Of a stretch of DNA of 64,000 bases, positions 4,424 through 31,100 are shown in pieces. Positions within the stretch are counted from its first letter, which is position 1. Each line of letters begins with the position of its first letter. The DNA is taken from assembly GCF_000024405.1 (NCBI RefSeq), contig NC_013517.1:3503989-3567988 (forward strand), written 5' to 3'. A program made the position numbers and the translations under genes. The notes beneath the pieces are model-generated. The model worked only from the letters and a program-made list of their open reading frames with translations, had not been told where the DNA came from and did not search any database. This stretch comes from Sebaldella termitidis ATCC 33386. Its GTDB lineage: Bacteria > Fusobacteriota > Fusobacteriia > Fusobacteriales > Leptotrichiaceae.

Positions 4424-4960
4424 TTATGCAGTCTTAGCCTGTATATTTCTTCTCTTTGATAAAAATACAAATATTATTTCGGTAATAAACCCTCTCATTA
4501 ATCCGACAATTACTCCGGCTATAATATATCTTATTGCAAGTCCTGAAACAGGGAGTCCGATCTTCTTTATCCCTTCTGCCACACCAAGCCAGATAAAAAG
4601 CTCAGACGGAACAACATGGGGAAATAAGGCTGTAAGCGGATGGGCTGTTGCCCCTAAGGCATCCTGATATCCCGGCTTACATTTTTCCGGAAGAAATCTC
4701 CCTACTGTAAGAGCACCCGGACTGCTGAAAAAGAACCATGCAAAGCTCGGAAGTATTCCATATGTAAGTATCTTTGACTTACCGAAAATTCTTGCCACAT
4801 TATTGATTTTATCTTCTCCTATAATCTTGATAATAAAATTAATTGTGGTAAGAAGTACTATAAGCATCGGTACAGAGCCTTTTACCATTCCCACGAGAGT
4901 AAGTCCTGCTTCCTGAAATAATGCTATAAAACTCTGTGCAAAATTAGTAATAAATTCCAT
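4424..4960 (-). CDS. srlA: PTS glucitol/sorbitol-family IIC component
   Basis: A 178-residue integral membrane protein with several hydrophobic helices and the family motif around PSFAWFFFSSPGALTVGRFLPEK, followed by HPLTALFPHVVPSELFIW. Length and motifs match SrlA, the smaller membrane subunit of glucitol permeases. It is the first gene of the operon, behind AGGAGG and a TTGACA/TATATA promoter about 100 bp upstream. The 269-bp upstream region is shared with the divergent Rep_3-like gene and holds the paired T-rich elements described separately. Confidence 0.9.
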   Translation of the reverse strand: MEFITNFAQSFIALFQEAGLTLVGMVKGSVPMLIVLLTTINFIIKIIGEDKINNVARIFGKSKILTYGILPSFAWFFFSSPGALTVGRFLPEKCKPGYQDALGATAHPLTALFPHVVPSELFIWLGVAEGIKKIGLPVSGLAIRYIIAGVIVGLMRGFITEIIFVFLSKRRNIQAKTA

Positions 4961-5113: not shown

Positions 5114-5192
5114 CTTTTTTTCGTCTTTCTTAAATATCATTATTTGATTATATACAGCTCAGGGAAAATTCAAACGACTTTTTTTCGTCTTT
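5114..5192 (+). promoter_or_regulatory. Pair of identical T-rich CGTCT elements (glucitol locus)
   Basis: The 15-mer CTTTTTTTCGTCTTT occurs at 5114-5128 and again, identical and in the same orientation, at 5178-5192. The CG dinucleotides are 64 bp apart, about six helical turns. Both copies lie in the intergenic region between the PTS operon and the divergent Rep_3-like gene, on that gene's coding strand. A related pair precedes the second Rep_3-like gene at 19580-19675. I infer a binding site for the neighbouring protein, comparable to plasmid iterons; binding itself is not shown by the sequence. Confidence 0.6.
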
Positions 5193-5229: not shown

Positions 5230-6339
5230 ATGAATCAAAAATTTTCGTTATTATCCGAAAGGCACTATTATGTAGATATCAGCCCACGAATAACTTCACG
5301 TGAAAAAAAACTTTTACTTTATGTTTTTGAAACATATAAAAAATACAGAAAGAATCCTGTAAAGCTTTCATCTGAAAAAATTCCCGCAATATTAAATGAA
5401 GAAAAAAAGGATCTGAATATTTTTCTGGAAAAACTCTCAAAAAAAAGAGTAACCTACTGCCTAAAAAATTTATACGGTTTCTCCTCTTTATTTGCCAGTG
5501 TTATTAATGTTTCAGAAAGTCTTTCCTTTTATCTTTCACATGAAATTACAGAATCCTTTAATTTTGGAACTAAATTTTATAACTATGATTTCAAATCCTT
5601 TTTTCTTTTTAATGAGAAAAGCTCACCTTTGTTCTTTCTTGAAATTTTGAAAAGAAAAAAAGTTACTGAAAATGAAATCATCATATCTATTTCAGATTTG
5701 AAAAATATATTAATGATTGAAAATGCATATGACAGGTTTTATGATTTTGAGAGATATATCTTAAAAAAAATTTTTTATGATGTGAATTTGTTTTCCAGAT
5801 TTAATTTTTCCTATGAGAAGATAAAAAAGGACGGACGTATTTCCGGATTAAAGATTTTATTTGATGACTTTGAATCAATTCAGGAAAATCCTGATATTAA
5901 TCATCTTATTTCCCTTGCAAAGGATCATACGGAAAATTACAAAAAGCTTCTGGAGCTTGTCAGCTCTGCCTTGAAAATAAAAGATACAGAAACAGTAAAA
6001 AAAGAGATTATTTTTTCGATCGAAAGCTATACACAAAATTTTGACAGATTTCTTGAAAAAGTTTTTAACGGAAAAATTGATATTTATGAAGATTTGAATA
6101 TTGTGAATTATTATGAAAAGGAATATTCCAATTTTTATACTTTTCAGTCTGATGTAATAAAAGAACTGAAAAATCACACGGAGAACCGATCTTTACTTGA
6201 ATATCTCAGTCTTTCCTATGAATTATACAGTTTTTTCTACGGGAAACAGTCTTCTTATACGAAGCTTATTCATAATATTATTCTGAAAATCCTTAAGATA
6301 GATTCTGTTTTTATTGTGAAGTTTATTTATAAGATTTAA
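5230..6339 (+). CDS. Rep_3-like (plasmid replication-initiator fold) protein, putative PTS-locus regulator
   Basis: A 369-residue soluble protein. Residues about 145-215 read like the second winged-helix part of Rep_3 initiators: a strand, then ISDLKNIL, YDRFYDFERYILKK, and a strand pair (FNFSYEKIKKDGRISGLKILF). Known Rep_3 proteins of this type (RepE, pPS10 RepA) start plasmid replication at iterons. The roughly 150 C-terminal residues are lysine-rich, helical and not recognised. The protein at 19887-21083 is a clear paralogue, sharing the LKNIL...RFYDFE(R/K)YILKK block. There are no plasmid maintenance genes nearby; instead it is divergent from the glucitol PTS operon, with two iteron-like repeats between them. 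A regulatory role is inferred from that context. AAGGA lies before the ATG. Confidence 0.65.
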   Translation: MNQKFSLLSERHYYVDISPRITSREKKLLLYVFETYKKYRKNPVKLSSEKIPAILNEEKKDLNIFLEKLSKKRVTYCLKNLYGFSSLFASVINVSESLSFYLSHEITESFNFGTKFYNYDFKSFFLFNEKSSPLFFLEILKRKKVTENEIIISISDLKNILMIENAYDRFYDFERYILKKIFYDVNLFSRFNFSYEKIKKDGRISGLKILFDDFESIQENPDINHLISLAKDHTENYKKLLELVSSALKIKDTETVKKEIIFSIESYTQNFDRFLEKVFNGKIDIYEDLNIVNYYEKEYSNFYTFQSDVIKELKNHTENRSLLEYLSLSYELYSFFYGKQSSYTKLIHNIILKILKIDSVFIVKFIYKI

Positions 6340-14341: not shown

Positions 14342-15853
<1,512 letters not shown>

Positions 15854-15856
15854 CAT

Positions 15857-17182
15857 CTATTGTTTGTCAAAAAAATCTTTAAACTGAGGAAGATATTTTT
15901 TGTGAGCTATTAATAATTCATCTAATACCTTTTTACCGATAGTGCTTCCAGGTACTAAAGGATTAGTAATGAATGCTTCTAATGCTATTTTATAATCTCC
16001 AGTTACAGCCGCTTCTATTGTAAGTTCTTCCATTGCTTTCATTATCTGGATATATCCTCTTTGTGCAGTAGGAAATTTCCCGAAATTAAGAGGTCTTGGA
16101 CCGGATGCAGTTATATATGCAGTAGTTTCTATAGCACAGTCATAAGGAAGATCATCTATTGTTCCGTTATTACGCGTATTTACTACCATTAATATTTTTT
16201 TGTCATTATGTATTGAATTTATCAATTCACATGCAGCATCTGAATAATATGCTCCTCCTCTTTTTTCAAGCTGTGTAGGCTTATCTTTTAAGTCTGGATT
16301 TTTATATAGTTCAAATAATTCTTCTTCCACTCTTTTTACCACTTCACCACGAGTTCCTTCATTTTTATAGCTTTCAAGTCCTTTTTGAAGCATATCGTCC
16401 TGAAGATAATAGTATCTGTGATAATAACACGGTATCATTCCTAAGTGATCAAGCTGATCCTGAAGAAAATGCATTACTTCTATATTAGCCACTCCTGCTT
16501 CTTCTTCGCTTATTACTTTCGCAGCTACTTCTCCTGTTATATCATTACCTTTATTATCATATACCTTGTGCCATACAAAGTGGTTTAATCCTGCAAAGTG
16601 GAAAAACAATTCACTGGCATCCTTGCCAAGAAGCTTTGATTCGCTCATCATATGGTTTACAGGAACATTGCACAGTCCCACCACTTTTTCATATTTCCCA
16701 TACTTCAATACTGCTTCTGTTACCATTCCTGCCGGATTTGTAAAGTTTACGAGCCATGCATCAGGACAAAGTCTTTTCATGTCTTCAACTATAGAAAGAA
16801 TTACCGGAATTGTACGAAATGCTTTCAGCATTCCGCCGGGACCGTTTGTTTCCTGACCAAGCAGACCATTTTCAAAAGGTATTCTTTCATCTTTTATACG
16901 AGCATCAAGGAAACCAACCCTGAATTGTGTTGTTACGAAATCAGCACCTTTCAAAGCTTCTTCTCTGTCCAGAGTCAGATGTATCTGCCAGTCCAGTCCA
17001 GCTTTTTCTACCATACGTTTTGCCAGATTCCCCACTATTTCAAGCTTCTCTTTCCCCTCTTCTATGTCAACAAGCCAAATTTCCCTTATTGGAAGCTCCG
17101 CACTTCTCTTAATAAATCCCTCAATCAGTTCCGGTGTGTAGCTGGAACCTCCGCCAATAGTTACAATTTTAATTTTTGACAT
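15857..17182 (-). CDS. chbF: Glycoside hydrolase family 4, 6-phospho-beta-glucosidase
   Basis: A 441-residue enzyme with the GH4 N-terminal NAD-binding loop (VTIGGGSSYTPELIEGF) and the motifs GLLGQETNGPGGMLKAFRTIPV, VNFTNPAGMVTEA and VGLCNVPVNHM; the last cysteine and the following HFAGLNHFVWH histidine are the metal ligands known for the family. These enzymes cleave phospho-disaccharides by an NAD/Mn-dependent redox elimination mechanism. It is the first catabolic gene after the transporter genes. The close match to the CelF/LicH/ChbF branch supports beta-linked phospho-disaccharides as substrates. Confidence 0.92.
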   Translation of the reverse strand: MSKIKIVTIGGGSSYTPELIEGFIKRSAELPIREIWLVDIEEGKEKLEIVGNLAKRMVEKAGLDWQIHLTLDREEALKGADFVTTQFRVGFLDARIKDERIPFENGLLGQETNGPGGMLKAFRTIPVILSIVEDMKRLCPDAWLVNFTNPAGMVTEAVLKYGKYEKVVGLCNVPVNHMMSESKLLGKDASELFFHFAGLNHFVWHKVYDNKGNDITGEVAAKVISEEEAGVANIEVMHFLQDQLDHLGMIPCYYHRYYYLQDDMLQKGLESYKNEGTRGEVVKRVEEELFELYKNPDLKDKPTQLEKRGGAYYSDAACELINSIHNDKKILMVVNTRNNGTIDDLPYDCAIETTAYITASGPRPLNFGKFPTAQRGYIQIMKAMEELTIEAAVTGDYKIALEAFITNPLVPGSTIGKKVLDELLIAHKKYLPQFKDFFDKQ

Positions 17183-17257: not shown

Positions 17258-18580
17258 TTATGCACTAACTGCTGCCTGCTCTTCTTTTAATTTTTGCGCA
17301 TCCATTATTTTAAAGAATGGATAATATATAAAGAAAGTCAATACCATACTTATTACCTGTATTACTCCTCCGGATATACTCGCCGTAGCCAGTGCCCCTC
17401 CGAGAACAGGCGGTGTTGTCCATGGTATCGCTATACCTGCGAGTCTTGACACCAGTCCTAATTTCATTGACCAGTATGTTATTGTAATTACCACTACCGG
17501 TGACAGTACAAACGGTATCAGCATAAGCGGGTTCATTACTATAGGAAGCCCGAAAAGAATCGGTTCATTAATATTGAAGAATGCCGGTCCTACAGCCAGT
17601 TTTCCTATTTCTTTCAGCTGTTTGCTCTTTGAGAAGAGGAATAATATTATTGCAAGTGAGAATGTAGATCCTGATCCGCCCATTGACTGGAATATATCAA
17701 AAAACTGTGTTGTTACAACGTGAGGTAATTCTGTTCCTCTTGCTCCTGCCATATAAGCAGCATTATTTTCCGCCATAAGCTTATAAGTTACCGGAGAGAT
17801 TATTCCCATTATAAGGGCTGCACCGTGAATTCCCGTCATCCACAATAAGTGAATAAGCAGTGTTACTACGAGAGCTCCCCAGTATGTTCCTCCGATTTTT
17901 GTAAGCGGTCCTACCAGTATTACTCTTACTATATTATGCATATCCTCAAATGGAGTGTACATTAATCCAAGTCTGATTATCCATACTACAGTTAATATTA
18001 TCATTCCCGGAATCAGGGCTGCGAATGACTTTGCCACTGCAGGCGGTACTCCGTCAGGCATTTTTATAATAATATCTTTTTGTACAATTATTCTGTATAT
18101 TTCCACAGTAAATATTGACATTATCAAACCTACGAATAATCCTCCACTGTCTAAAAAGCTAAATGCGATTCCGCCTACAGTGCCTATTTCTTTACCGTCT
18201 TGTAAAAACGGGATGTTGTAAGGTGTTACAAGAACGAAAGTACATAAAGACAACACTGCCCCTGTAAGCGCATCTACATTATATTTTTCAGAAAGTCTGT
18301 ATGCTATACCTATACAGGCTATTACTCCCATTAGTCCGAAGGATGCTGTTACCGGATACCCCAGCTTTTCAGCTATTCCTGTTTCCGCCAGCCATTTTGT
18401 GTATGCCGGTATCGGAAAGTTTCCTATTATTAAAAATACTGATCCTATTATTGTAAGCGGCATTGTAACTATAATTCCATCTCTTATTGCCTGAACATGT
18501 TTTTGATTTCCTATTCTTCCTGCTACAGGCATTAAATGTTTTTCCAGAAATCCTATAACCCCGTCCATTGCTCCTGCCAT
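17258..18580 (-). CDS. chbC: PTS cellobiose/chitobiose-family IIC component
   Basis: A 440-residue membrane permease of the lactose/cellobiose IIC type, with about ten hydrophobic segments. Family marks are GVIGFLEKHLMPVAGRIGNQKHVQAIRDG at the N-terminus, HLLWMTGIHGA near the middle (substrate-binding region) and FNINEPILFGLPIVMNP. Start at ATG 18580 is supported by GAGGAGG; a frame extension of five codons has no site. It is separated from the IIA gene by 207 bp, unusually long inside this operon, with a hairpin just after the IIA stop. Confidence 0.92.
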   Translation of the reverse strand: MAGAMDGVIGFLEKHLMPVAGRIGNQKHVQAIRDGIIVTMPLTIIGSVFLIIGNFPIPAYTKWLAETGIAEKLGYPVTASFGLMGVIACIGIAYRLSEKYNVDALTGAVLSLCTFVLVTPYNIPFLQDGKEIGTVGGIAFSFLDSGGLFVGLIMSIFTVEIYRIIVQKDIIIKMPDGVPPAVAKSFAALIPGMIILTVVWIIRLGLMYTPFEDMHNIVRVILVGPLTKIGGTYWGALVVTLLIHLLWMTGIHGAALIMGIISPVTYKLMAENNAAYMAGARGTELPHVVTTQFFDIFQSMGGSGSTFSLAIILFLFSKSKQLKEIGKLAVGPAFFNINEPILFGLPIVMNPLMLIPFVLSPVVVITITYWSMKLGLVSRLAGIAIPWTTPPVLGGALATASISGGVIQVISMVLTFFIYYPFFKIMDAQKLKEEQAAVSA

Positions 18581-18756
18581 AATATTCCTCCTCAATTTCT
18601 ATATATAATATTATACTAAAATTCTTTAACATCTTCATCAAAAAACAATGATAATTATGCATAAAATTAATGTTTTAAGGAATAAAATTCCAAACTTATG
18701 GACATAATACCCCTGTTATAAAGTTTATCTGCCCAAGTTCTTGGAATTTATTTATA

Positions 18757-18787: not shown

Positions 18788-19111
18788 TTAACCCTCCAGA
18801 GCATCCACTCTTTTATATAAATCTATCATTTCTATTACCATATCTTTGAACAGAATTGACCCCATCAGATGATCCTGTGCATGAACCATTATAAGACCCA
18901 GCTCTACTTTTTCTCCGCCTGCTTCCTTTGTTATAAGATCTGTCTGTATTTCATGTGCTTTCAGCATCTCTTCATTTGCTTTCTTTATATAGCTGTCAGC
19001 TTCTTCAAAGTTACCGACCTTTGCTTCTCTCAAAGCCTGAAAAGAATAGCTTTTACTTTCTCCTGCATGACCTATTAAGCTCATTGCAATCATTTCTATA
19101 TCCATTTCCAT
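18788..19111 (-). CDS. chbA: PTS lactose/cellobiose-family IIA component
   Basis: A 107-residue helical cytoplasmic protein of the usual length for lactose/cellobiose IIA. The phosphorylation site is in MVHAQDHLM (His77), with the metal-binding Asp80 that holds the trimer in known members. Other family marks are SLIGHAGESKSYSFQALREA and AHEIQTDLI. It carries phosphate from HPr to the IIB protein encoded just upstream. The gene lies 45 bp after chbB. Confidence 0.93.
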   Translation of the reverse strand: MEMDIEMIAMSLIGHAGESKSYSFQALREAKVGNFEEADSYIKKANEEMLKAHEIQTDLITKEAGGEKVELGLIMVHAQDHLMGSILFKDMVIEMIDLYKRVDALEG

Positions 19112-19156: not shown

Positions 19157-19462
19157 TTAACCGATTAATTTCAAAGCCTGTTCCAAAACCTTTGGCCCGT
19201 TCATCATTCCGTAATCCATCATATTTATTACATCAATAGGTATTCCTTTTTCATCAGCCACTTTTTTCAGATCGCTTAATGCGTATTTTACCTGCGGACC
19301 TAATAAAAGTACATCGGCATTTCCTACGTGATCTCTTACTTTTTCAAGCGGCTCTGCCCAAACTTCTGTTTCAATTCCCTGTTCATCTGCAGCCTTTTTA
19401 ATTTTTGTCACAAGCAGACTTGTAGACATCCCTGCTGCGCAGCATAATAAAATTCTTTTCAT
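19157..19462 (-). CDS. chbB: PTS cellobiose-family IIB component
   Basis: A 101-residue protein beginning MKRILLCCAAGMSTSLLV; Cys8 before A-A-G-M-S-T is the phospho-acceptor of the lactose/cellobiose IIB family. DVLLLGPQVKYAL and the terminal IDVINMMDYGMMNG are also typical. It is the promoter-proximal gene, preceded by GAGGAGG and a TTGACA/TATTAT promoter about 70 bp upstream. The 424-bp upstream region is shared with the second, divergent Rep_3-like gene and contains the second pair of T-rich CGTCT elements. Confidence 0.93.
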   Translation of the reverse strand: MKRILLCCAAGMSTSLLVTKIKKAADEQGIETEVWAEPLEKVRDHVGNADVLLLGPQVKYALSDLKKVADEKGIPIDVINMMDYGMMNGPKVLEQALKLIG

Positions 19463-19532
19463 AGTGAATTTCCTCCTCTAAAATGTTAATTTAATAATTT
19501 AATTGTTTCTTGCATAAATTCATCTTACCTAT

Positions 19533-19560
19533 ATAATAACCTATTTTTCTTATATGTCAA
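19533..19560 (-). promoter_or_regulatory. Sigma-70-type promoter of the cellobiose PTS operon
   Basis: On the minus strand, TTGACA (19560-19555) and TATTAT (19538-19533) are separated by 16 bp. The proximal CGTCT element begins 19 bp upstream of the -35 hexamer; its CG is 26 bp from the hexamer edge, against 36 bp at the glucitol locus. Confidence 0.7.
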
Positions 19561-19579
19561 ATTTAGTAAAAAAGCTTTA

Positions 19580-19675
19580 TTTTTTCGTCTGCTTTTTTCT
19601 GATAAAAATTTTATTTTTGCCGTTTTTAAGCTTTTTATTCTTAAATCTTCAAAAAAAATATTGTTTTTTCGTCTG
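19580..19675 (+). promoter_or_regulatory. Pair of identical T-rich CGTCT elements (cellobiose locus)
   Basis: The 12-mer TTTTTTCGTCTG occurs at 19580-19591 and 19664-19675 in the same orientation. Each is followed by another T run. The CG dinucleotides are 84 bp apart, which is eight turns of B-DNA. The core TTTTTTCGTCT is shared with the pair upstream of the first Rep_3-like gene, but the base after it differs (G here, T there), so the elements match better within a locus than between loci. Confidence 0.6.
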
Positions 19676-19783
19676 TTTTTGGCAAAAAAAAGTTATTATA
19701 TTTTTATTTTTCTTGAAAATTTTTTCAAAAAACCCCATTTTTTAAATATAATTTTAATAATTATAGCTTTTTTTTCATATTTT

Positions 19784-19858
19784 TGTTATAATTCATTCAA
19801 AGTACTTTCCATATAGAAAATTCGGATTTTGAAAATCCAAAGGTATAAAAATATGGAA
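19784..19858 (+). promoter_or_regulatory. Extended -10 promoter and nested inverted repeats before the second Rep_3-like gene
   Basis: TGTTATAAT (19784-19792) is an extended -10 element with no clear -35. Downstream, before the start codon, two inverted repeats are nested: the outer one is TTCCATAT (19807-19814) with ATATGGAA (19851-19858), the inner one GGATTTTGAAAATCC (19824-19838). They would lie in the untranslated leader. They could be an operator or an RNA fold. Plasmid Rep proteins of this fold commonly autoregulate through inverted repeats, which makes autoregulation a reasonable guess. Confidence 0.45.
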
Positions 19859-19886
19859 TATATGAAATTTTAATAAAGGAGTTGTA

Positions 19887-21083
19887 ATGCTAAATATATA
19901 TAATTCCCAACAGTTTAATTTTCTAAAAAAACATAATTTTTCAGTTTTTACAAATAAATCATTAAATAAGAAAGAAAAAAAATTTTTAAAAACCCTTTAT
20001 ATCAGCTGCGGTATTATCGATAAAAATAACTCGGAAATATCCTATAAAACCGAAGATATATTAAGTATTTTAAATTACGATTCCATCGCACGTCTTGAAA
20101 AATTTCTTAATAATATTATCAGTAAAAGAGTTTTTTACAGAATTGAGGAGGATAACAAACTTCTGCAGAACGGGAGCTTCGGAATTATAAACTCTTATTC
20201 TGTATATAAAGGCAAGGTCTATTTTCTTCTTTCCGAAGAGATACTCCTATCTTTTGTGGAAAAGACTCTTTTTTCATACCTGAAAATAGATAAATTTATT
20301 TTTATGGAGGAAAATTTCTCTTATAATCTTTATTTATATCTTATTCCGCTTTTTTATAATCAAAAAGAAGTAAATATCGAACTGGATAAGCTCAAAAATA
20401 TACTTAATGCCGAAACCAGCTATGAAAGATTTTATGATTTTGAAAAATACATTCTGAAAAAAGCAATTGAGGATATAGTAACTTTCAGTAAATATAATCT
20501 TTCATATTATAAGATGAAAACCGGAAAAAACATAAATAACAAGGTTACCGCAATAAAATTCATACTTAACAATAAAAAACCCGGCAATTACTTTGATGTA
20601 AAATATGCTGCCAATGAACTCCTGAATATGGTTAAGTCTCACATAACCAATATAAATGAGATGTACGAGCTTATTCTTCTTTATATAGTAAAAAGAAACT
20701 ATGACTATGTACTTCTCAATATAAAATATGTACTTGCCAATTATACCGACAATATAGAAAAGCACCTGAAAAGAGCTCTTTTATACGATCTCGGCAATAC
20801 TGAAAAAACAGATAAATATACACTTTATGTAGAGGATATTGCACACTTTAAGACACCTTTTATACTTCAGATGAATCTTTGGAGACATTTGAATAAAGTC
20901 AGCAGTGAAATTCCTGATTACGATGATGTAAACAGACTTTATTACTCAGATTTTTTCAAAAAAATAATAAAGCTTAAGGATAAGGAAGAGTTTGATTTTA
21001 CTAATGATTCTGTGAGAATATTCATAAAATATAATGTAAAAGAGGAAAGTATTATCAGAATATATATTCATAAGGAAGTATAG
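19887..21083 (+). CDS. Second Rep_3-like protein, putative PTS-locus regulator
   Basis: A 398-residue soluble protein, paralogue of the one at 5230-6339. The strongest shared block is residues 166-192 (LDKLKNILN, then YERFYDFEKYILKK), followed by a strand pair (YNLSYYKMKTG... VTAIKFIL), matching the second winged helix of Rep_3 plasmid initiators. The N-terminal part (about 25-135) would be the first winged helix. The C-terminal half is helical and unrecognised. There are no partition, mobilisation or copy-control genes nearby. It is divergent from the cellobiose PTS operon and shares the 424-bp control region. AAAGGAG precedes the ATG, and an MmcQ-like gene follows 34 bp downstream. Confidence 0.65.
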   Translation: MLNIYNSQQFNFLKKHNFSVFTNKSLNKKEKKFLKTLYISCGIIDKNNSEISYKTEDILSILNYDSIARLEKFLNNIISKRVFYRIEEDNKLLQNGSFGIINSYSVYKGKVYFLLSEEILLSFVEKTLFSYLKIDKFIFMEENFSYNLYLYLIPLFYNQKEVNIELDKLKNILNAETSYERFYDFEKYILKKAIEDIVTFSKYNLSYYKMKTGKNINNKVTAIKFILNNKKPGNYFDVKYAANELLNMVKSHITNINEMYELILLYIVKRNYDYVLLNIKYVLANYTDNIEKHLKRALLYDLGNTEKTDKYTLYVEDIAHFKTPFILQMNLWRHLNKVSSEIPDYDDVNRLYYSDFFKKIIKLKDKEEFDFTNDSVRIFIKYNVKEESIIRIYIHKEV

Positions 21084-21117: not shown

Positions 21118-21786
21118 ATGACTGATACGGATATTTTGTTTAAAAATAAAAAAGCAGATATAAAGCGGCTTCTTTCCTATGGATTTATAAAAAGGGAGAA
21201 AAATTACATCTATTCTGCCAAATTAGTAAATGATCAGCTTGAAATGACAGTAATTATAACAGAAGCCGGAAAATTATCAACAGAAATCAGAGATACGCTT
21301 TCAAAAGAACTTTACATTGTTCATAAGGTTTCCAATTCATACGGGGGCTTCGTCGGAAAAGTCCGTGAAGAACATAACAGAATTCTTAATGATATTATAA
21401 AAAACTGTTTTGATAATGATACATTTAAAAGTGAATATTCAAAACTGGTTATTGAATATGTCAGAAAAAAATACAATGACGAACTTCAGTTTTTATGGAA
21501 GAAATTTCCTGATAATGCGGTTTTTCGCCGTAAGGACAGTAATAAATGGTATGCAGCATTACTAATTCTTCAAAAGCACAAATTAGGACTGAAAGAAGAC
21601 GGCATAGTTGAAATAATTGATTTGAGAATTAAGCCTGAAGAGCTGATCAGCCTTATTGACAACAAAAAATATTTTCCCGGTTACCATATGAATAAAAAAC
21701 ACTGGTTCACTATCTGCCTTGACGGCTCGGTTCCAATAGAAGAAATTTTTTCACATATTGATAAAAGTTATACACTGGCACAATAG
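21118..21786 (+). CDS. MmcQ/YjbR-like protein with extra N-terminal domain
   Basis: A 222-residue protein. The C-terminal ~90 residues match the MmcQ/YjbR fold: FPDNAVFRRKDSNKWYAALLIL, a DLRIKPEELISLIDN segment and the ending FPGYHMNKKHWFTICLDGSVPIEEIFSHIDKSYTLA. The family is a small double-wing domain sometimes called DNA-binding, with no established biochemical function. The N-terminal ~115 residues are an additional region that I do not recognise. AAAGGAG precedes the ATG. It follows the second Rep_3-like gene closely and ends at a strong terminator, so the two are probably co-transcribed. Confidence 0.75.
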   Translation: MTDTDILFKNKKADIKRLLSYGFIKREKNYIYSAKLVNDQLEMTVIITEAGKLSTEIRDTLSKELYIVHKVSNSYGGFVGKVREEHNRILNDIIKNCFDNDTFKSEYSKLVIEYVRKKYNDELQFLWKKFPDNAVFRRKDSNKWYAALLILQKHKLGLKEDGIVEIIDLRIKPEELISLIDNKKYFPGYHMNKKHWFTICLDGSVPIEEIFSHIDKSYTLAQ

Positions 21787-21902: not shown

Positions 21903-23693
21903 TTAATATATATTCTTATCTTTCAAAACAGCCAATGCAGTCTCTGCTGCTTTTTTCCCGCCTGCATCATCCTTTCCCTGAATATTCACGGCAAAAATAA
22001 ATACATTATCTTCCTTTTCCACAAAGCCCACAAACCAGCCGTTTACATTCTTTCCGTTTACTGCTCCGGTTCCTGTTTTTCCATAAAGGGCAGCTTTGTT
22101 ATTTTCTGATAATTTCATTGCATTTTTTACAGTTTTTATGTTTTTATTACTGAAATCCAAACTGCCTGTATAAAAATTTTTCAGCAGTAAAACCTGCTCC
22201 ACCGGAGAAATCCGTAAAGAAGAACCCATCCAGTAATCTGATATATCTCCGGCAAGATTATAATTTCCGTAGGCTATTTTTTTATAATAAGAATAAAGCT
22301 GTTTTTTCCCGGCTTTTTTATCGATTTCCTGAAAATACCAGTTTACGGAATTTCTTAATGCACTTTCAAGAGTCTGATCCTGATCCCACACTTGATAAGG
22401 ATTCTTTTTCCCGTCCCATTTCATAACAGAATCATCATTTTTTATTATTCCCAGCTCCAGCCCGATAAGTGCGTCATATATCTTATAGGTAGAATCAGGT
22501 GCTGTTCTGGTGATACTTTTATCCCTGTTATAAATAAAATACTGATCATTTTTCATGTTATATAAAACAAAGCTTCCGTTAAATCCCCTGAAATAAGTGC
22601 TGAGATCTTCATAAACAATATTTTTTCCCCGAAAATCATACTTTTCAGTATAAGCCATCTGTGTTACAGCCGGAATCTGACTCAGCAAAAAAACACTCAG
22701 TCCCGTAAAAACAAAAAAACTCTTTATTTTCATGCTGATTGTTTCTCTGGTATAAACCGCTATTTTTTTTATTCGCTTTTTGAGTTCTTTTTTAGTTCCT
22801 CCCAAACTTGCTGTCATAAACATGTGAGGAGTTTCAGATAATTTTGTTATAAAATTTATAATAGTATATCCGTAATCATGAAAAGAGGTTTCATCAAGCA
22901 CTTTCAGCACTGCAGCATCGCAAGCTATTTCTCTGTCAATGCGTATCTGCTTAAAAATCAGCCATATCAGCGGATTAAACCAGTAAATAACCTGAAAAAA
23001 CAGCATTATCCAGTTAATCAAAACGTCCCTGCTTTTATAATGATTCAGTTCATGTAAAAAAATATATTTTATCTCTTTTGAGCTGAACTGCTCGGATATT
23101 TTTTCAGGAAGTACGATATATGACCGAAAGACTCCCATTGTTACCGGAACCCGGGTAAGAGAAGACGTCCCCATCACAGGTTTCTTGCTTATTTTAAGTA
23201 TATTGCAGCATTCCGCATAAAGATCGTTTATTTTCTTATCTCTCACAAAAATTAGTGATTTTCCGATTTTTCCAAGTCTAAAACTGCCCATAATTATGAG
23301 AAATAAAAATATGAAAATTCCGGCAGCCCATACTCCTATCAAAAATAAGACAATATATTCAGGCATTGAATGATTGGCAGATACGCCAAAATCCTGAATC
23401 CAGTCAGCAGCATGTACTAAAGTCCCGCTTCTGTCGTTTCCCGCCATTCCGATTTCTGTAATCTGACCTGCATTCAGCTTATGAAACGTAAAATTATTCA
23501 AAACTCTGTAATCAAAAATTCTGCTTGGTATAAAAGGTACAGCTAATATTAACAGAAATAAAAAATCAGTATTATTCTGCCATTTTGCAGTAATATGTTT
23601 TTTAAATATACCTTTTATTCCCAGAATAACTAAAATAAAAACAGATATTGTAAAAGAATTCATCAAAAAACAGATAAAATTCGTCCTGATCAT
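21903..23693 (-). CDS. blaR1: BlaR1/MecR1-family beta-lactam sensor-transducer
   Basis: About 596 residues. The N-terminal half has membrane segments and an M56 metalloprotease domain with FLHELNHYKSRD (zinc H-E-x-x-H) and a downstream INWIMLFFQVIYWFNPLIW helix. The C-terminal ~250 residues are a penicillin-binding sensor related to class D beta-lactamases: DSTYK (acylated Ser and carboxylatable Lys), NSVNWYF, YGN and KTGTG. In the staphylococcal paradigm, acylation activates the protease domain, which cuts BlaI. Start at ATG 23693, one base after the blaI stop, with AAGGGG upstream; translation of blaI and blaR1 is probably coupled. Confidence 0.93.
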   Translation of the reverse strand: MIRTNFICFLMNSFTISVFILVILGIKGIFKKHITAKWQNNTDFLFLLILAVPFIPSRIFDYRVLNNFTFHKLNAGQITEIGMAGNDRSGTLVHAADWIQDFGVSANHSMPEYIVLFLIGVWAAGIFIFLFLIIMGSFRLGKIGKSLIFVRDKKINDLYAECCNILKISKKPVMGTSSLTRVPVTMGVFRSYIVLPEKISEQFSSKEIKYIFLHELNHYKSRDVLINWIMLFFQVIYWFNPLIWLIFKQIRIDREIACDAAVLKVLDETSFHDYGYTIINFITKLSETPHMFMTASLGGTKKELKKRIKKIAVYTRETISMKIKSFFVFTGLSVFLLSQIPAVTQMAYTEKYDFRGKNIVYEDLSTYFRGFNGSFVLYNMKNDQYFIYNRDKSITRTAPDSTYKIYDALIGLELGIIKNDDSVMKWDGKKNPYQVWDQDQTLESALRNSVNWYFQEIDKKAGKKQLYSYYKKIAYGNYNLAGDISDYWMGSSLRISPVEQVLLLKNFYTGSLDFSNKNIKTVKNAMKLSENNKAALYGKTGTGAVNGKNVNGWFVGFVEKEDNVFIFAVNIQGKDDAGGKKAAETALAVLKDKNIY

Positions 23694-23694
23694 A

Positions 23695-24081
23695 TTATTT
23701 CCCCTTCTTGTCTTTTTCCATATCAAGAATTTTCTTTAGTTCATTTATATCATTTTCCGTAAGCTTATCCTGTTCCAAAAAGTTAACTACCATAGAATTC
23801 AGGGCACCGTCATAAAATTTATTCAAAAAGCTGCTGCTTTCCTGTTCCACATAATCTTCCTCTTTTATCAGCGGAGTATACACAAATACTCTCCCCTCTT
23901 TTTTATAGCCTATCGCACCCTTTTTTACCAATCTCGAAAGCAGTGTCTGTATTGTCTTAGGCTTCCACGAGCTTTCAACTGTGAGAATTTCAGTAACTTC
24001 CTTTGTACTCACAGGGGCTTTGTCCCAAATTAATTTCATAACCTGATATTCTGCTTCTGAAATAGAAAATGAATTTTTCAT
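23695..24081 (-). CDS. blaI: BlaI/MecI-family repressor
   Basis: About 128 residues. The N-terminal winged helix is clear: ISEAEYQVMKLIWDKAPVSTKEV, then WKPKTIQTLLSRLVKKGAIGYKKEGRVFVYTPLI, closely following BlaI/MecI. The C-terminal ~45 residues form the dimerisation helices. ATG 24081 is preferred over an upstream TTG because GGAGG lies 5 nt before it. In this family a dimer binds TACA-N2-TGTA palindromes; three such palindromes lie in the divergent intergenic region. BlaR1 cleavage would relieve repression. Confidence 0.94.
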   Translation of the reverse strand: MKNSFSISEAEYQVMKLIWDKAPVSTKEVTEILTVESSWKPKTIQTLLSRLVKKGAIGYKKEGRVFVYTPLIKEEDYVEQESSSFLNKFYDGALNSMVVNFLEQDKLTENDINELKKILDMEKDKKGK

Positions 24082-24096
24082 AACAGCCTCCAATTC

Positions 24097-24108
24097 TTAC
24101 AAATGTAA
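24097..24108. promoter_or_regulatory. BlaI-type operator 3 (blaI side)
   Basis: TTACAAATGTAA is a perfect palindrome around two central bases. It lies between the blaI -10 (TATAAT on the minus strand, 24121-24116) and the blaI ribosome binding site, a position suited to autorepression of blaI-blaR1. Confidence 0.85.
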
Positions 24109-24168
24109 TAAATTTATTATACCACAATTTCAAAGGGATTATAAGTAATTTTTTTATAAAAATTTTTC

Positions 24169-24197
24169 TTGACAAATTTATCTTACAAGTGTAAGAT
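24169..24197 (+). promoter_or_regulatory. Beta-lactamase promoter overlapping BlaI operator 1
   Basis: TTGACA (24169-24174) and TAAGAT (24192-24197) are 17 bp apart. The 18-bp palindrome ATCTTACAAGTGTAAGAT (24180-24197), with perfect 8-bp arms, covers most of the spacer and the whole -10. Repressor binding here would block RNA polymerase directly. Confidence 0.88.
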
Positions 24198-24205
24198 ATA
24201 AAAAA

Positions 24206-24217
24206 TTACATATGTAA
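24206..24217. promoter_or_regulatory. BlaI-type operator 2 (bla side)
   Basis: TTACATATGTAA is a perfect palindrome, 23 bp centre to centre from operator 1 and just downstream of the expected bla transcription start. Two adjacent operators on this side would give tight repression. Confidence 0.82.
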
Positions 24218-24279
24218 GATTTAATTTTAAAGAGTATTATAATAATACTTATTTCTATCAAAATAATAAGGAGAAAATC

Positions 24280-25113
24280 ATGAAAAGAATTCTATTAGTT
24301 ATTATGCTGGCTTTTTCTACTATTCTGTGCAAAGCCCAGCCAAAATCAGAAAATACTGTTAACAATGCTGCTTCCGGAGGAATCCAGGAGGAAAATCTTC
24401 AAAAATACTTTGACGATCTGAATATAAAAGGAAGTATTACCATTTATGATTATAAAAATAAAAAATGGTACTATAGCGACAAAAAAGACTCAGAGAAACG
24501 AACTCTTCCGGCCTCTACCTTCAAAATACCAAATTCACTGATAAGCATTGAAGAATATGCTGTAAAAGATGAAAATGAAGTTTTGAAATGGGACGGAGTT
24601 ATAAGAGAATTTCCAGCACATAATGCAGATACAGACTTAAAAACTGCTTTTAAAAATTCCACTGTCTGGTTTCACAGGGAAATGTCAAGAAGGGTCGGAA
24701 TTGATAAATACAGAAAATATCTGAAAGAATTTAATTACGGAAATCAAAAGCTTTCAGGAATACCGGATTATTTCTGGCTGGATAATACACTTGTTATTTC
24801 ACCTGCTGAACAAATAAATTTCTTATCCGGGCTTTATGATGAAAAATATCCGCTTTCAAAAAGAACCTATAATATTGTAAAAAATGTAATGATTGAGAAA
24901 AAGACAGACTCATATACCTTAAGAGCCAAAACCGGAAGCGGATTGGTAAAAACTCTGGATATAGGCTGGTATGTTGGTTATATAGAAACCAAAGACAATG
25001 TTTATTTTTTTGCTACAAGATTACAGCAGGACGAACCTGATAAAAATGATGATTTCCTGAATCTGAGAAAAACTATTACTTTTAATATTTTTCAGGATAT
25101 GGGAGTTATGTAA
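24280..25113 (+). CDS. Class D (OXA-type) beta-lactamase
   Basis: A 277-residue protein with an N-terminal export signal; Cys17 in STILC may be a lipobox. All class D motifs are present: ASTFK (Ser79 nucleophile, Lys82), STV (127-129), YGN (153-155) and KTG (217-219). Such enzymes hydrolyse penicillins and related beta-lactams in the periplasm; the exact spectrum cannot be read from sequence. The gene is divergent from blaI-blaR1 and its promoter carries two BlaI palindromes, so expression should be inducible. Base composition does not differ visibly from the neighbours and no mobile element flanks the locus. Confidence 0.94.
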   Translation: MKRILLVIMLAFSTILCKAQPKSENTVNNAASGGIQEENLQKYFDDLNIKGSITIYDYKNKKWYYSDKKDSEKRTLPASTFKIPNSLISIEEYAVKDENEVLKWDGVIREFPAHNADTDLKTAFKNSTVWFHREMSRRVGIDKYRKYLKEFNYGNQKLSGIPDYFWLDNTLVISPAEQINFLSGLYDEKYPLSKRTYNIVKNVMIEKKTDSYTLRAKTGSGLVKTLDIGWYVGYIETKDNVYFFATRLQQDEPDKNDDFLNLRKTITFNIFQDMGVM

Positions 25114-25174: not shown

Positions 25175-28100
25175 CTAAAATGAAGCCTTAAAAGAAACTC
25201 CTACTTTATAATCTTCTTTCTTTTCATTTCCTATTCCGTATTCTCCTGTAAGGAATATTCCATATCTGTCTTTTAATTCCACCCCTATTATACCGTTTGT
25301 CTTTAATCTCCCCTTATCCTCAGCTGTCTGTGCCAGTTTATGATGACCTTCTTCTATTGCTGAAAGACCGGCTTCTTCCTGTCTGTTCATATTTCCAAGC
25401 TCATATTCATAACCTGCTCCTATATTACCCTTGATTTTCCAGTTTGACTCCGATCCGAGCCTTTTTTCCGCTTCCAGTCTTACACCTATACTTGGCTTTA
25501 TACTGTAAGCATCATTGCTTTCCACCTTCAGACTTTCGGCAGCTCCGCTCTCCTCAAAGCTTTCATGTGTCATATATCCCAGCTCCAGACCTGTATAAGG
25601 TACCATCTTTACATTCCGCCCTATTTCAAAGTCTTTTCCAATTTCATTTAATGAGCTTAGACCGTATACATTATAATCCGATTTCATATCTGACTTTGTT
25701 TTATCATACCATGTAATGCTTCTGTCATTTGTATGGAAGCTCACTCTTCCCAGCAGGTCATTTCGGAAATTCCATCCGTTTACAGTATATTTATTATGTA
25801 ATCCAAGCTGTATAGTATCTGCCTGATCCTCATTATCAGTATTCTTCATCTGAAAATCAGTTCTTGTATACCCAAGTGAATAACCAAATGTATGTCTGTA
25901 TGTTCTTTCTACTTCCCTAAGCGCCAGTACACCTACTGTATTATAATCATATGACTCTACTCCGCTCGTATCTTCCTTAGTGCTTCCTTTACCTGCTATT
26001 ACATTTATTTTTACATTTTCTTTTGTGTTGTTCTCTGAATTCTGCAGTGTAAACAAGGCATTATTTAGTACACCGTAAATATCCTGTTCTCTTTGGTTTA
26101 TATTGGCATACATGCTTCCCGAAAGCTGCTCTAAACTATCTCTTAATGTATTTTCATCTTTTATAAGATCAAGCCTGTCATAAATTTTCAGTGCATCACC
26201 CTGTGCATTTAGATATTTATTTTCTATATTTTTGGCAAAGCCGTCATACCATGCTCCTTGTGTAAAGTTGTCATAATTGATCTTTTCCATCCATATATCT
26301 ATTTTCCCCTGTGCATTCGTTACCGGAATTGCATCAAATGTCACTGAAGTACTTTTTACAGACACTTCTCCGGTATTTTGTCCTCCGCCCGGAGTAGTAG
26401 GATCAAATACATTTTCAAATTTATACACCCTTGCATTAGTTCCCTGAGTAAATAACGGGTCTATTTTTGCAACATTGTCACCAAAATTAAATCCCGGTGC
26501 CACTATACTCACACTGTTGCTTAGAAGAAAACCGCCGTTTATATCTTCCGGCGAATAACCATTTAGAGCAACCTCTTCTGCTGTAGGTACTCTAAAGCTT
26601 GACGGATCAGGCTTTATAATAAGATCAAAGCCGTTCAGCTCGAATTTTTCATCCACCTTTATAATTCCTGCGTTTATTATACTTGGAGGAGTATATGCCG
26701 CTTCTCCGGTTACTACCTGTACAGAACCTATTGTTCCGGAAGCTATTTCTATCAGTCCGTGATTTTCAAGTATTGAACCTCCTGAAAGCTGTATTCCTGT
26801 ACTGTTATTTCCGTTTATATATATCTTTCCCGTACTTTCATTTATTACCTTCGAATTGGCATTAGCATAAATACCCATACTGTCGTTACCATTCATTGTT
26901 ATAATTCCTGCATTTGTAATCTCAGTATTTCTTGTTCCGGCTATTCCGATACTTCCGTCTCCCGATAATGTAATATTGCCTTCATTTCTTACTGCTCCCT
27001 GCTCTATGTATATCCCCACTGCTTTTTCTGACACAGATGTTATATTTCCAGTATTCAGAGATTCATTTATATTATTTATCGAGTAAAAACCTACTGCATC
27101 GGAACCAATAGATATATTTCCGCTGTTTTGCATATTCTGTACATTTTCTCCGTAGACTCCCACTGCGTACTTATTAGCAAAAGGATTATCCGGATCTGTT
27201 ATAACAGAATTACCGATTTTTATATCACCGCTGTTATTTATACTGCCTTCTTTATTATATATTCCCATATTTGCAGTTCCGTTGTCACCATTTATTGCGG
27301 CTTTATTTGTTATATCCCCGCCATTTATCATGTAAAAGCCTATTGAGTCAGAACCTGACATATTCAGGTCCGCCCCTGTTTCATTAATAACAGTTGTTTT
27401 ACCGTCAGAATAAATCAAAACACCCGTATCTTCCAAATGAGATATATTTCTTCCGGTATAGACTGCATTCCCGCTTAACACTGCACCATAACTGCCGCTG
27501 CTTACACTTATCTCAGCATTATTATCAGTTACGGCACCGTTTGTCGCATAAATTCCTACTGTTTTTTCACCGCTTAATAACAATTTCCCGCCTGTAAGAT
27601 TCAGATTCCCGGCATTCATATATATCCCGGTACCTGCCGGAGCAATTTTTATATCTCCGGCTGTATGATTTATTATACCGCCTTTATTATAGATACCTAT
27701 AGATTTTTCACCCAGTATCATGTCAGTGGAATTATTAACCGTTCCCTGAGAATTATTATTGAATATCCCTATACTCGGATCAGCCGCGCTCACTGAACCG
27801 CCTAATTCTACAGAATTATTATTATTAAAGGTTTTTATACCTCCAGATGTAATATATACTCCTACAGATTTATCACCTGTTAATTTTATAGTTCCGTTAT
27901 TTTCTCCTGTAATATCAGCTGTTCCGTCGATATAAATACCTACAGCCTTTTCGCCTGTACTATTAATTACACCCGAATTCGAGACAGCGCTGCCATCTTT
28001 TATATAAAGCCCTGATGATCCCGCTCCGATTCCTATATATCCGGAATTTTCAATGCTGGTACCTGCACCGCTCCCATACAATCCCACAGAAGAATTCCCC

Positions 28101-31100
28101 ATATATACAGAACCTTCATTTTTTGCCTTAGCACCATTTGTTACATAAATTGCTGTTGATTTGCTGCCGCCGAAATTTATTACTCCTTTATTAGTTGCTT
28201 CATGATTTACAGCTTCACCATTTATAGTTACGGGAAGCCCGCCTGAATAAGCACCTGTAAGGGCTATCCCCACCATATTATCTCCTGCCGCATCTAAATA
28301 TGAATTACTTCCGAGCAATACTGCCGAATTAATTCCGGAAGTAAATGTTCCTCCGGCTCCCAAAGAAGCATACGAATCATAAAACATGGTTCTGTCTTTT
28401 ATATTCTGTACTATATACTGTGAATCAACCGTAGAATTAACGGAAAAACTCTGATTAAAATATCCTGAACCGGCTACGTTAAATATTACTATTCCTTTCC
28501 CGTCTACATTTACCGTTCCTGTTCCTGAGAAAGATGAAGTTCCGTCAGTATATATACCCACAGAATTATCTCCCTTCAGATTTAGCTCCAGATTACTAAG
28601 GGATACAGTATTATCTTTAATATATATTCCTGTTCCGTTTTCCCCTGCTGTTATTTTATTAAGTCCGTTACCTGAAACATAAGATTTATTGGAGTATATT
28701 CCTACACCGCCTTTTGAAGCGCTTACATCAATATCACTCCCGTCTTCGAGATACAGAGTTCCCTGTCCGTAATATCCTCCGCTTGAATTTTCATTTACAT
28801 AAATTCCTATGGCCTTTTTACCTGAAGATGCAGTTATTTTCCCGGAATTATATACATCAAAACTTGCATAAGAAGTTGTGTAATCATTTGGTTCCGGATA
28901 AGTTTCCGCATAAATTCCCACACCGTTATTTCCAATATTTATCTCACTGCTGTTTCTGACAGTTCCGGCAGTAGTATACATCCCTATACTGCTTTCACCG
29001 TTCAAATTTAGAGCGCCTGTATTAGTCTGCCCTGCTCTTTGAGTATAAATACCTATAGATTTATTTCCGCTAAGAGTAATTATCCCGTTATTTTCGCTGT
29101 TTATTCTGTTATACTCATTCGCCTTATAGCTCTGTCCTATTGCTACCAGATTATCTTCAGTTCCGCTTATTGTCACACCTTGGTTTACAGATACTCCGGA
29201 TTTTCCTATTTCAGTATTTCTGTATGTTTTATCTCCTGTATTATTGTTTTTATCTATATTGGAATCTGTATCTATTACCAGCAGTGATGAAGTCAGCTTG
29301 GATTTCCCTGAACCGATAAACTCTATTGAAGAATTTCCTGACAGATCCTTCAGATCACTTAAATTTACCTTTGCATTTTTTACTGCTATATTAAAGCTGT
29401 CTGAATCTGTATTTATAGTAAGCTTCCCGTTTGAAGCATCAGTTACGCTGTTTACATATCCCTGAAGATCAACAGTATTTGATATTCCGCTGCCTTCATA
29501 ATAATATCCTATTGCCCCGTTTTTCAAGTTTGCATTTACATCACCATTAATTACTGTTTTCCCTGTCAGAGTGGTATAGTTATCTTTTTGAAAAAAGAAT
29601 GCAAAGCTGTCCTTTCCGTTTACTGTTAATTCCATAGCCTGTCCTGGAGTTTGGGACTGCAGGGTAATATTCCCGCCTTTTGAAAATAAAGCTGCTCCCC
29701 CGTCGCCATTTACTTCAAGTCTGTCTGTAGTAATATTTGTTTCTGACGAAGTATTCTGATATGCCCCGTTTACATATAAAGAACCCGATCCGCTGTAGAC
29801 CGCTGTCGGTTGTTTACCGTTCACCTCTATATAGCTGTTTTCAGATGTCAGACTTAATCCGTTATTATAAACAGCAGTGGCATAATTACCGTTCATTTCA
29901 ATATTACCTTTATTTAAACCATATTCACCCGCTACCATTCCGCTGACTACAAGACCCAGACTCCCGTAATTACTTCCCCACTGAGTTGTAAATGAAGAAG
30001 AATTATTTACGATATCCCCGTAATTTTCAAAGGTCCCGTTAGTTATTATTCCGGTCATTGCTATTGCCCCCGGATTTATTGTAATAGGCATATAATTTTT
30101 TATTACTGTTCCATATGAACCTGACACTATAGAATTTTGAGTTCCTGCATTAATAGGGACTATGGAATTAATAAGACTGCTGTCCAGCGTTACTTTTCCA
30201 TAACTCACTTTTACTATAGAACTTTGCTTGGAGTCTGCTCCGAATTCTACTTTTTTTATTACAGTATCATTTAATATCATATCCATTGTTTTTAACGTTG
30301 CAGACTGTGTTTCTCTTGATACTGCCGGTGTATTTGTTCCGTTTATATATATATCCATATTTTTTACATTATCTAAAATATTGTTTCCTGTGGTACTCAA
30401 ACCTCTTTGAACATATAACCCGACATTTTTGGTACCTTCCAGTATTATTTTCCCGTTTGATCCATCTATTTCTATTGTTGAATTTACATAATCATTACTT
30501 CCATATACTGAAGCTCCGATTTCCACAGCCCGGTTTCCTTCTCCGGTAACACTTATATTACCGGGCTTTATCAGAATAGGCCTTGTGTACGGGTCTACTG
30601 CAACAAATACTCCTACTCCTCCTGTTGATCCCGATACGTTTCCTGTATTCAGTTCTATTATGATATTCCCTGAATTGATCAGCTCTCCTGCCATTGAAGA
30701 TGATGCAGTTCCCCTGTCCAGCTGCATTGCTATCCCGCTTTGTCCGGATTGTGTTCCATTTTTTATTGTTATTGTTCCCGTATTTTCAAGAACTGCTTTT
30801 GCACCAGAGTTCGGATTTGAATTTGTCAGATTAAGACTTAATCCGACAAGTCCTGTTGATGAAAACGAAGATGTAGTATCATCTGCCTGCAAATTTAAGT
30901 TTCCTGAAAATACAAGCCTGCTGTCTGATGTTGCATAGTATGGTCTATAGCTTAAAAAGCCCCAGTTATTATAACTTGCTCCGTTAGTCATAATCAGATC
31001 CCAGTTGCCTTTTACTTCAAAATTACCGTTATTTGATATATTATGTACTGCAAATCCTGTACTATAACCGGTATGAGTATAAGAAGCAGCTGTTGTCCCT

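Follow-up and report, generated by a model that had tools for sequence, protein, structure and literature searches.

The chromosome of Sebaldella termitidis ATCC 33386 carries, opposite a lactose/cellobiose PTS operon, a gene whose product has the fold of a plasmid replication initiator of the Rep_3 type, which raises the question of what such a protein does beside a sugar transport operon. The window, that is the whole stretch of DNA analysed, comprised 64,000 nucleotides (NC_013517.1, positions 3,503,989 to 3,567,988), and contained the subject gene at 19887-21083 and a paralogue at 5230-6339 (Table 1). In agreement with the initial annotation, the subject gene was found divergent from a PTS operon led by a PTS component, celIIB being the first gene across the intergenic region 19463-19886, and Pfam assigned the two facing PTS systems to different families (glucitol at the 5230 locus, lactose/cellobiose here), as had been stated. 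The block reported to be shared by both proteins was also recovered, LKNIL.AETSYERFYDFEKYILKKAIEDI, within an alignment of 28% identity over 307 aa (E 1e-19).

Table 1. Features of the subject locus and of the glucitol paralogue locus, in positions of the window
Feature	Position	Strand	Basis or remark
GH1-type 6-phospho-beta-glucosidase	14342..15787	-	ORF translation, by eye
GH4-type 6-phospho-glycosidase	15857..17182	-	ORF; homologous to L028:5599-6927
PTS lactose/cellobiose IIC (celIIC)	17258..18595	-	PTS_EIIC match
PTS lactose/cellobiose IIA (celIIA)	18788..19111	-	PF02255, E 4.5e-36
PTS lactose/cellobiose IIB (celIIB), first gene of divergent operon	19157..19462	-	PF02302, E 1.5e-25
Predicted -10 of PTS operon promoter, TATTAT	19533..19538	-	Consensus prediction
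Predicted -35 of PTS operon promoter, TTGACA	19555..19560	-	Consensus prediction; conserved in nearest relative L101
Operator-like box 1, TTTTTTCGTCT	19580..19590	+	Centre ~-60 from predicted PTS start; conserved in relatives
Operator-like box 2, TTTTTTCGTCT	19664..19674	+	84 bp = 8 turns from box 1, upstream; conserved in relatives
Predicted -10 of regulator gene, TATAAT	19787..19792	+	Sequence; conserved in L101
Rep_3-fold putative regulator gene, 398 aa (subject)	19887..21083	+	Rep3_C, RepE profile, structure model
Winged-helix domain 1, residues 17-115	19935..20231	+	Model m0b75b2af39c6, aligned with RepE and pi; Pfam Rep3_N silent
Winged-helix domain 2, residues 143-229, signature YERFYDFEKYIL	20313..20573	+	Rep3_C
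C-terminal extension, residues 235-398, helical then alpha/beta	20589..21080	+	Model pLDDT 88
Glucitol PTS IIC, first gene facing paralogue	4424..4960	-	PF03608, E 1.3e-69
Box 1 of paralogue, CTTTTTTTCGTCTTT	5114..5128	+	~-71 to -73 from predicted PTS start; identical in relative L115
Box 2 of paralogue, CTTTTTTTCGTCTTT	5178..5192	+	64 bp = 6 turns from box 1
Paralogous Rep_3-fold putative regulator facing glucitol PTS	5230..6339	+	Rep3_C, E 6e-9

Winged-helix domain 2 of the subject protein was matched by Rep3_C (PF21205, residues 165-225, E 4.6e-8) at 33.6 bits, above the cut-off of 21.1, and its residues Y179, R181 and D184 were invariant throughout the family. For winged-helix domain 1, no Pfam match to Rep3_N was obtained in the subject protein; the short-form family member L204 scored 25.5 for Rep3_N against a cut-off of 22.4, and residues 21-231 of the subject model could be aligned with RepE. 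A profile built from 17 relatives matched RepE of the F plasmid over both winged helices (E 1e-12, profile 26-216). The AlphaFold2 model of the subject protein (m0b75b2af39c6, mean pLDDT 83) was superposed on RepE bound to its iteron (1REP) with Z 13.8 and 180 residues aligned, and on R6K pi bound to its iteron (2NRA) with Z 13.2, residues 13-232 being the stretch aligned with both. No domain was given by Pfam for the C-terminal extension of ~165 residues, and Foldseek and VIA searches of its fold against PDB and viral models returned nothing significant, the weak rows having Z of ~5 or less. Some family members (~280-310 aa) do not possess the last part of this C-terminus. The extension was inferred to be a putative signal domain, and signal sensing has not been shown. 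No match to a PRD domain was obtained in the subject protein, and phosphorylation by the PTS at a conserved histidine was rejected, as residues 230-398 contain no invariant histidine across the family.

Several features around the subject gene were recorded separately. In the same direction and 34 bp downstream lies a gene for 222 aa (21118-21786) that ends in a YjbR domain (E 8e-16); a gene of similar size follows the relative in L101, not that in L107. Inspection by eye of 21903-25113, just downstream, pointed to three genes: one for a BlaR1-like membrane sensor of 607 aa whose C-terminal part is penicillin-binding/class D-like, one for a BlaI-like repressor of 132 aa, and a divergent one of 277 aa that is class D beta-lactamase-like. 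Together these appeared to form a complete beta-lactam sensing set in a Gram-negative member of the Fusobacteriota. Two very large autotransporter-like genes of ~2,200 codons each were located at 25175-31825 and 49735-56472. A candidate leader hairpin of the regulator mRNA (19824-19838) was discarded, being neither conserved nor more stable than shuffled sequences (z -0.6).

The complete genome (4,486,650 bases, three contigs) was searched for Rep paralogues. Ten chromosomal genes passed the Rep3_C cut-off, sharing six alignment columns invariant in all ten, and the sole strong Rep3_N match was located on the plasmid contig C2. Each of the ten was arranged head-to-head with a carbohydrate operon, encoding respectively glucose IICB; a cellobiose-family IIC; the EF_0829-0833 set with DgaF aldolase; fructose-family IIA/B/C with an 894-aa gene resembling alpha-mannosidase; ascorbate-family IIB/C; alpha-glucoside IICB with GH4; glucitol IIC/A/B; cellobiose IIB/A/C; galactosamine-type IIB/C/D/A; and DgaE/DgaF with mannose-family IIA-D. 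The proposal of an expanding regulator family with members paired to different sugar systems was therefore, if anything, understated, and it withstood its own refuting test, that most genomic paralogues would not be adjacent to transport operons (10/10 were). A third member (C1:3498924-3500111, in L028), 4 kb left of the window and facing an alpha-glucoside PTS, brings three members within ~26 kb. With 44 PTS_EIIC matches in the genome and ten paralogues, the regulator can be used by only a minority of the PTS operons.

The family was detected in 54 of 98 Fusobacteriota genomes and was represented in 17 of 29 genera; the number of copies ranged from one to ten. About 120 neighbourhoods were compared, the neighbours being typed by similarity to annotated PTS proteins and by Pfam. 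The nearest upstream gene was divergent in 122/126 usable loci, and a sugar uptake or breakdown operon was faced in 123 of the 124 informative loci (110 PTS, 9 EF_0829-type, 3 ABC importers and 1 GH1), from which plasmid-type Reps (L209-L211), one fragment and contig ends were left out; the single exception, L214, had a transposase upstream. The same layout was present in an NCBI-annotated record, the 664-kb plasmid p1 of Cetobacterium somerae, where a member annotated as 'replication initiation protein' faces a mannose-family PTS across an intergenic region holding the box TTTTTTCGTTTG. On the maximum-likelihood tree of 132 proteins the transporter label changed 18 times, compared with 62 times after labels were shuffled. 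The tree thus follows transporter family, the first of the two alternatives (PTS family or genome position) put forward earlier, and the regulator-operon pairs are therefore old and travel together. The view that the Rep gene was not simply duplicated with its operon held to the extent that the families of regulators and of operons are distinct; for one regulator to have spread recently to new operons is, however, exceptional.

Two further observations concern individual members. Those in L025:9819-13036 and L119-L124 face the little-known EF_0829-0833 set, which includes DgaF aldolase and is a putative transport system; the set is thereby linked to sugar-type control. One member (G007 contig C1, 770624-771740) is broken up by a number of stop codons, an indication that the regulator can degenerate.

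The intergenic DNA between the regulator gene and the PTS operon contained a directional box, TTTTTTCGTCTA (consensus TTTTTTCGT(C/T)TA), often in two copies. In the subject region it corresponds to the paired direct repeats TTTTTTCGTCTG at 19580 and 19664, and in the paralogue region to the CTTTTTTTCGTCTTT pair, neither of which had been noted in the initial annotation; between relatives, both boxes were the best conserved stretches of the intergenic region. On the Rep-gene strand, TTTCGT was present in 106 of 121 divergent intergenic regions (23.4 expected from dinucleotide shuffles) and TTCGTC in 65 of 121 (5.7 expected), these being the strongest words once ribosome-binding sites and the PTS promoter's -35 were set aside. 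Boxes were not uniform: those of the glucose/alpha-glucoside clade lay only near the regulator gene, none being PTS-proximal, so the mode may differ between clades, and the fru locus of the Sebaldella genome had no TTCGT, only GTCGTCT. Regulon searches by sequence patterns located exact TTTTTTCGTCTR at 11 places in the genome, GTCAA-N-TTTTCGT at 10 and paired TTTCGT at 17. A scattered regulon was not claimed, the pattern counts not exceeding reversed controls and few of the places outside Rep loci being promoter-like.

Two or three copies were present in 65 regions, at spacings of whole helical turns (52-53, 64, 72-74, 84-85 and 92-95 bp). Taking one spacing per 50%-identity cluster, the phase was significant at 10.5 bp (Rayleigh R 0.58, phase 0.3, p ~2e-4, n=25). 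With PTS promoters predicted by consensus and one random member drawn per cluster, a box was centred at -62 to -59 from the predicted PTS start in 19/42 clusters, compared with 0.94 by random placement, for which the maximum in 2000 trials was 7. The box was discovered and measured on the same regions; the controls, the clusters and the inverted cases were separate. These inverted cases arose in some Leptotrichiaceae and Fusobacteriaceae with PTS genes on both sides of the Rep gene. Nearly all TTTCGTCT boxes of the control regions fell on the side where the PTS gene runs in the direction of the Rep gene, between these two genes, and here the box was inverted and its orientation relative to the PTS promoter thus unchanged. 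As the box flips with the PTS promoter, it is to be assigned to that promoter rather than to the promoter of the Rep gene alone. In one clade the inverted boxes occurred as pairs at -60 and ~-145; a second clade had only one site, at -72, farther out by a turn. These positions fit the class I spacing by whole turns.

Directly established for the family were its fold, operon pairing, box, phase and position. That operator-like boxes are conserved, and lie at a constant distance from the PTS promoter, raises the case for a regulator well beyond what adjacency alone would allow, and an effect on transcription remains unproved. It appears highly probable, on the strength of sequence analysis and without binding, expression or mutant data, that the family protein would act as a local regulator of the neighbouring operon. 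The explanation we favour, and consider probable, is that of a transcription factor descended from a Rep_3 (RepE/RepA/pi-type) plasmid or phage initiator, which binds the box and activates the PTS operon; that it acts mainly as an activator is by itself a somewhat guarded inference. The two winged helices would bind the box as they once bound iterons. From -61 or -72, the protein would contact RNA polymerase from one helical face, activating the PTS promoter in the manner of class I activators. Another box in the same phase, at a distance of 5 to 9 turns and frequently beside the regulator's own promoter, may provide cooperative binding and autoregulation, a part that Rep proteins already play at their own promoters (PMC4980987). 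The extra C-terminal domain may sense a sugar, a sugar phosphate or the local PTS protein.

The same protein could instead be a repressor that occupies both -60 and the second in-phase box and silences the PTS promoter by DNA looping until it is released by the sugar or its phosphate, and this was judged a less likely possibility. GalR acts at -60.5, at gal by DNA looping. That position, together with the good consensus -35 that many PTS promoters already have (TTGACA in 30/56 promoters with a -61 box), makes a GalR-like repressor the main rival of activation, and the boxes are indeed paired and in phase. Rep proteins, moreover, are known to repress their own promoters (PMC4980987 and its reference list). 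Repression would, however, have to be reconciled with the predicted core PTS promoter, which was not covered by any box in most clusters, with the second box, which lies upstream of the PTS promoter and not downstream, and with the shift of one turn to -72 in a whole clade, which is typical of class I activation.

The box might also belong to a different, global regulator of PTS operons, the Rep-like gene being a passenger. The box core is common to all paralogues, and paralogue-specific flanks were unsupported on the 3' side (permutation 0.46) and weak on the 5' side (0.01), so how crosstalk among ten co-resident paralogues is avoided remains unexplained. This reading nevertheless became improbable given that the box is missing where a PTS operon of the same genome has no Rep gene beside it: only three TTTCGT were found in ~8 kb of intergenic DNA around such PTS_EIIC genes. 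The box was missing from other intergenic regions too, TTCGT reaching 7.2/kb against 0.8-1.1/kb in 349 other intergenic regions of the same loci (box density ~sevenfold or more above control regions); exact boxes were rare in the genome, and Rep and PTS families remain paired along the tree. That the genes survive from integrated plasmids, or still serve as chromosomal replication initiators, as their annotation and RepE fold could imply, is very improbable, since tandem iterons were absent beside them (0-3 boxes per region, spaced mostly 52-103 bp) whereas the true plasmid Reps of the phylum have 3-6 tandem units of 21-22 bp, plasmid genes were absent beside them, their pairing with sugar operons is strict, and a perfect DnaA box was present in only 9/121 regions.

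Returning to activation by a former initiator, the full proposal is of an unrecognised transcription-factor family that arose from plasmid initiators, was amplified across the phylum, and activates sugar-transport operons by means of helically phased direct repeats that derive from iterons, together with a new signal domain at the C-terminus; as a whole it is put forward with only slightly better than even confidence. No previous description of the family was found in a literature search limited to open-licence papers. If correct, the proposal would add a transcription-factor family to a phylum with little-studied sugar regulation and account for a large group of chromosomal proteins, such as WP_330112116.1, that are now wrongly annotated as replication initiation proteins. 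It would also be a well-replicated case of the initiator of a selfish element becoming a metabolic switch, in which tandem iterons were remodelled as a DNA site into phased boxes at promoters, and the conversion of initiator winged helices and direct repeats into promoter control becomes testable.

As for the origin, the simplest history is that a Rep_3 initiator was captured, lost its iteron array, acquired the C-terminal part and was amplified. One pattern-based scan beyond Fusobacteriota found the nearest relatives in L097 (beside a ParA gene) and L098 (a phage-like stretch), both ordinary Rep_3 proteins of ~315 aa which share the YxRFYDFEKxVLKPA helix with the family and are without its last ~90 residues. 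The box resembles the iteron TGCAGAAA..GTCGTCTTTT that accompanies the plasmid Rep of L209, which is suggestive only, and the iterons of L210, L211 and the Sebaldella plasmid Reps differ. The L209 locus itself (G095 contig C2, 227183-239352) contains three identical-scoring plasmid-type Rep copies at intervals of ~5.5 kb, reflecting either repetition of a replicon unit or a feature of the assembly.

The family can be set against four known systems. Local PTS regulators (PRD activators/antiterminators, LacI, GntR and DeoR types) are likewise encoded adjacent and often divergent to the PTS operon, but the present family has a Rep_3 fold, with neither a PRD domain nor an invariant C-terminal histidine. 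RctB, the initiator of Vibrio chromosome 2, is also a Rep-like winged-helix protein serving its host (weak structural match, Z 5.8); RctB initiates replication, whereas the family faces sugar operons. Class I activators such as CRP (-61.5/-71.5) resemble it in the predicted sites at -60/-61 and -72 on a fixed helical face, and the criterion of a site near -61.5 or whole turns further upstream was fulfilled on predicted promoters; CRP differs in its unrelated fold, and the family site is directional, not palindromic, contact with RNA polymerase being only inferred. Compared with the Rep_3 plasmid initiators (RepE of F, pi of R6K, RepA; PF01051/PF21205), the family is chromosomal, multi-copy, paired with sugar operons and devoid of tandem iterons, and in the subject protein Rep3_N is no longer recognised by Pfam. 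It retains, however, their tandem winged-helix fold, the WH2 signature with invariant Y-R and D, and direct-repeat DNA sites, and in those initiators the winged helices are known to repress the initiator's own gene.
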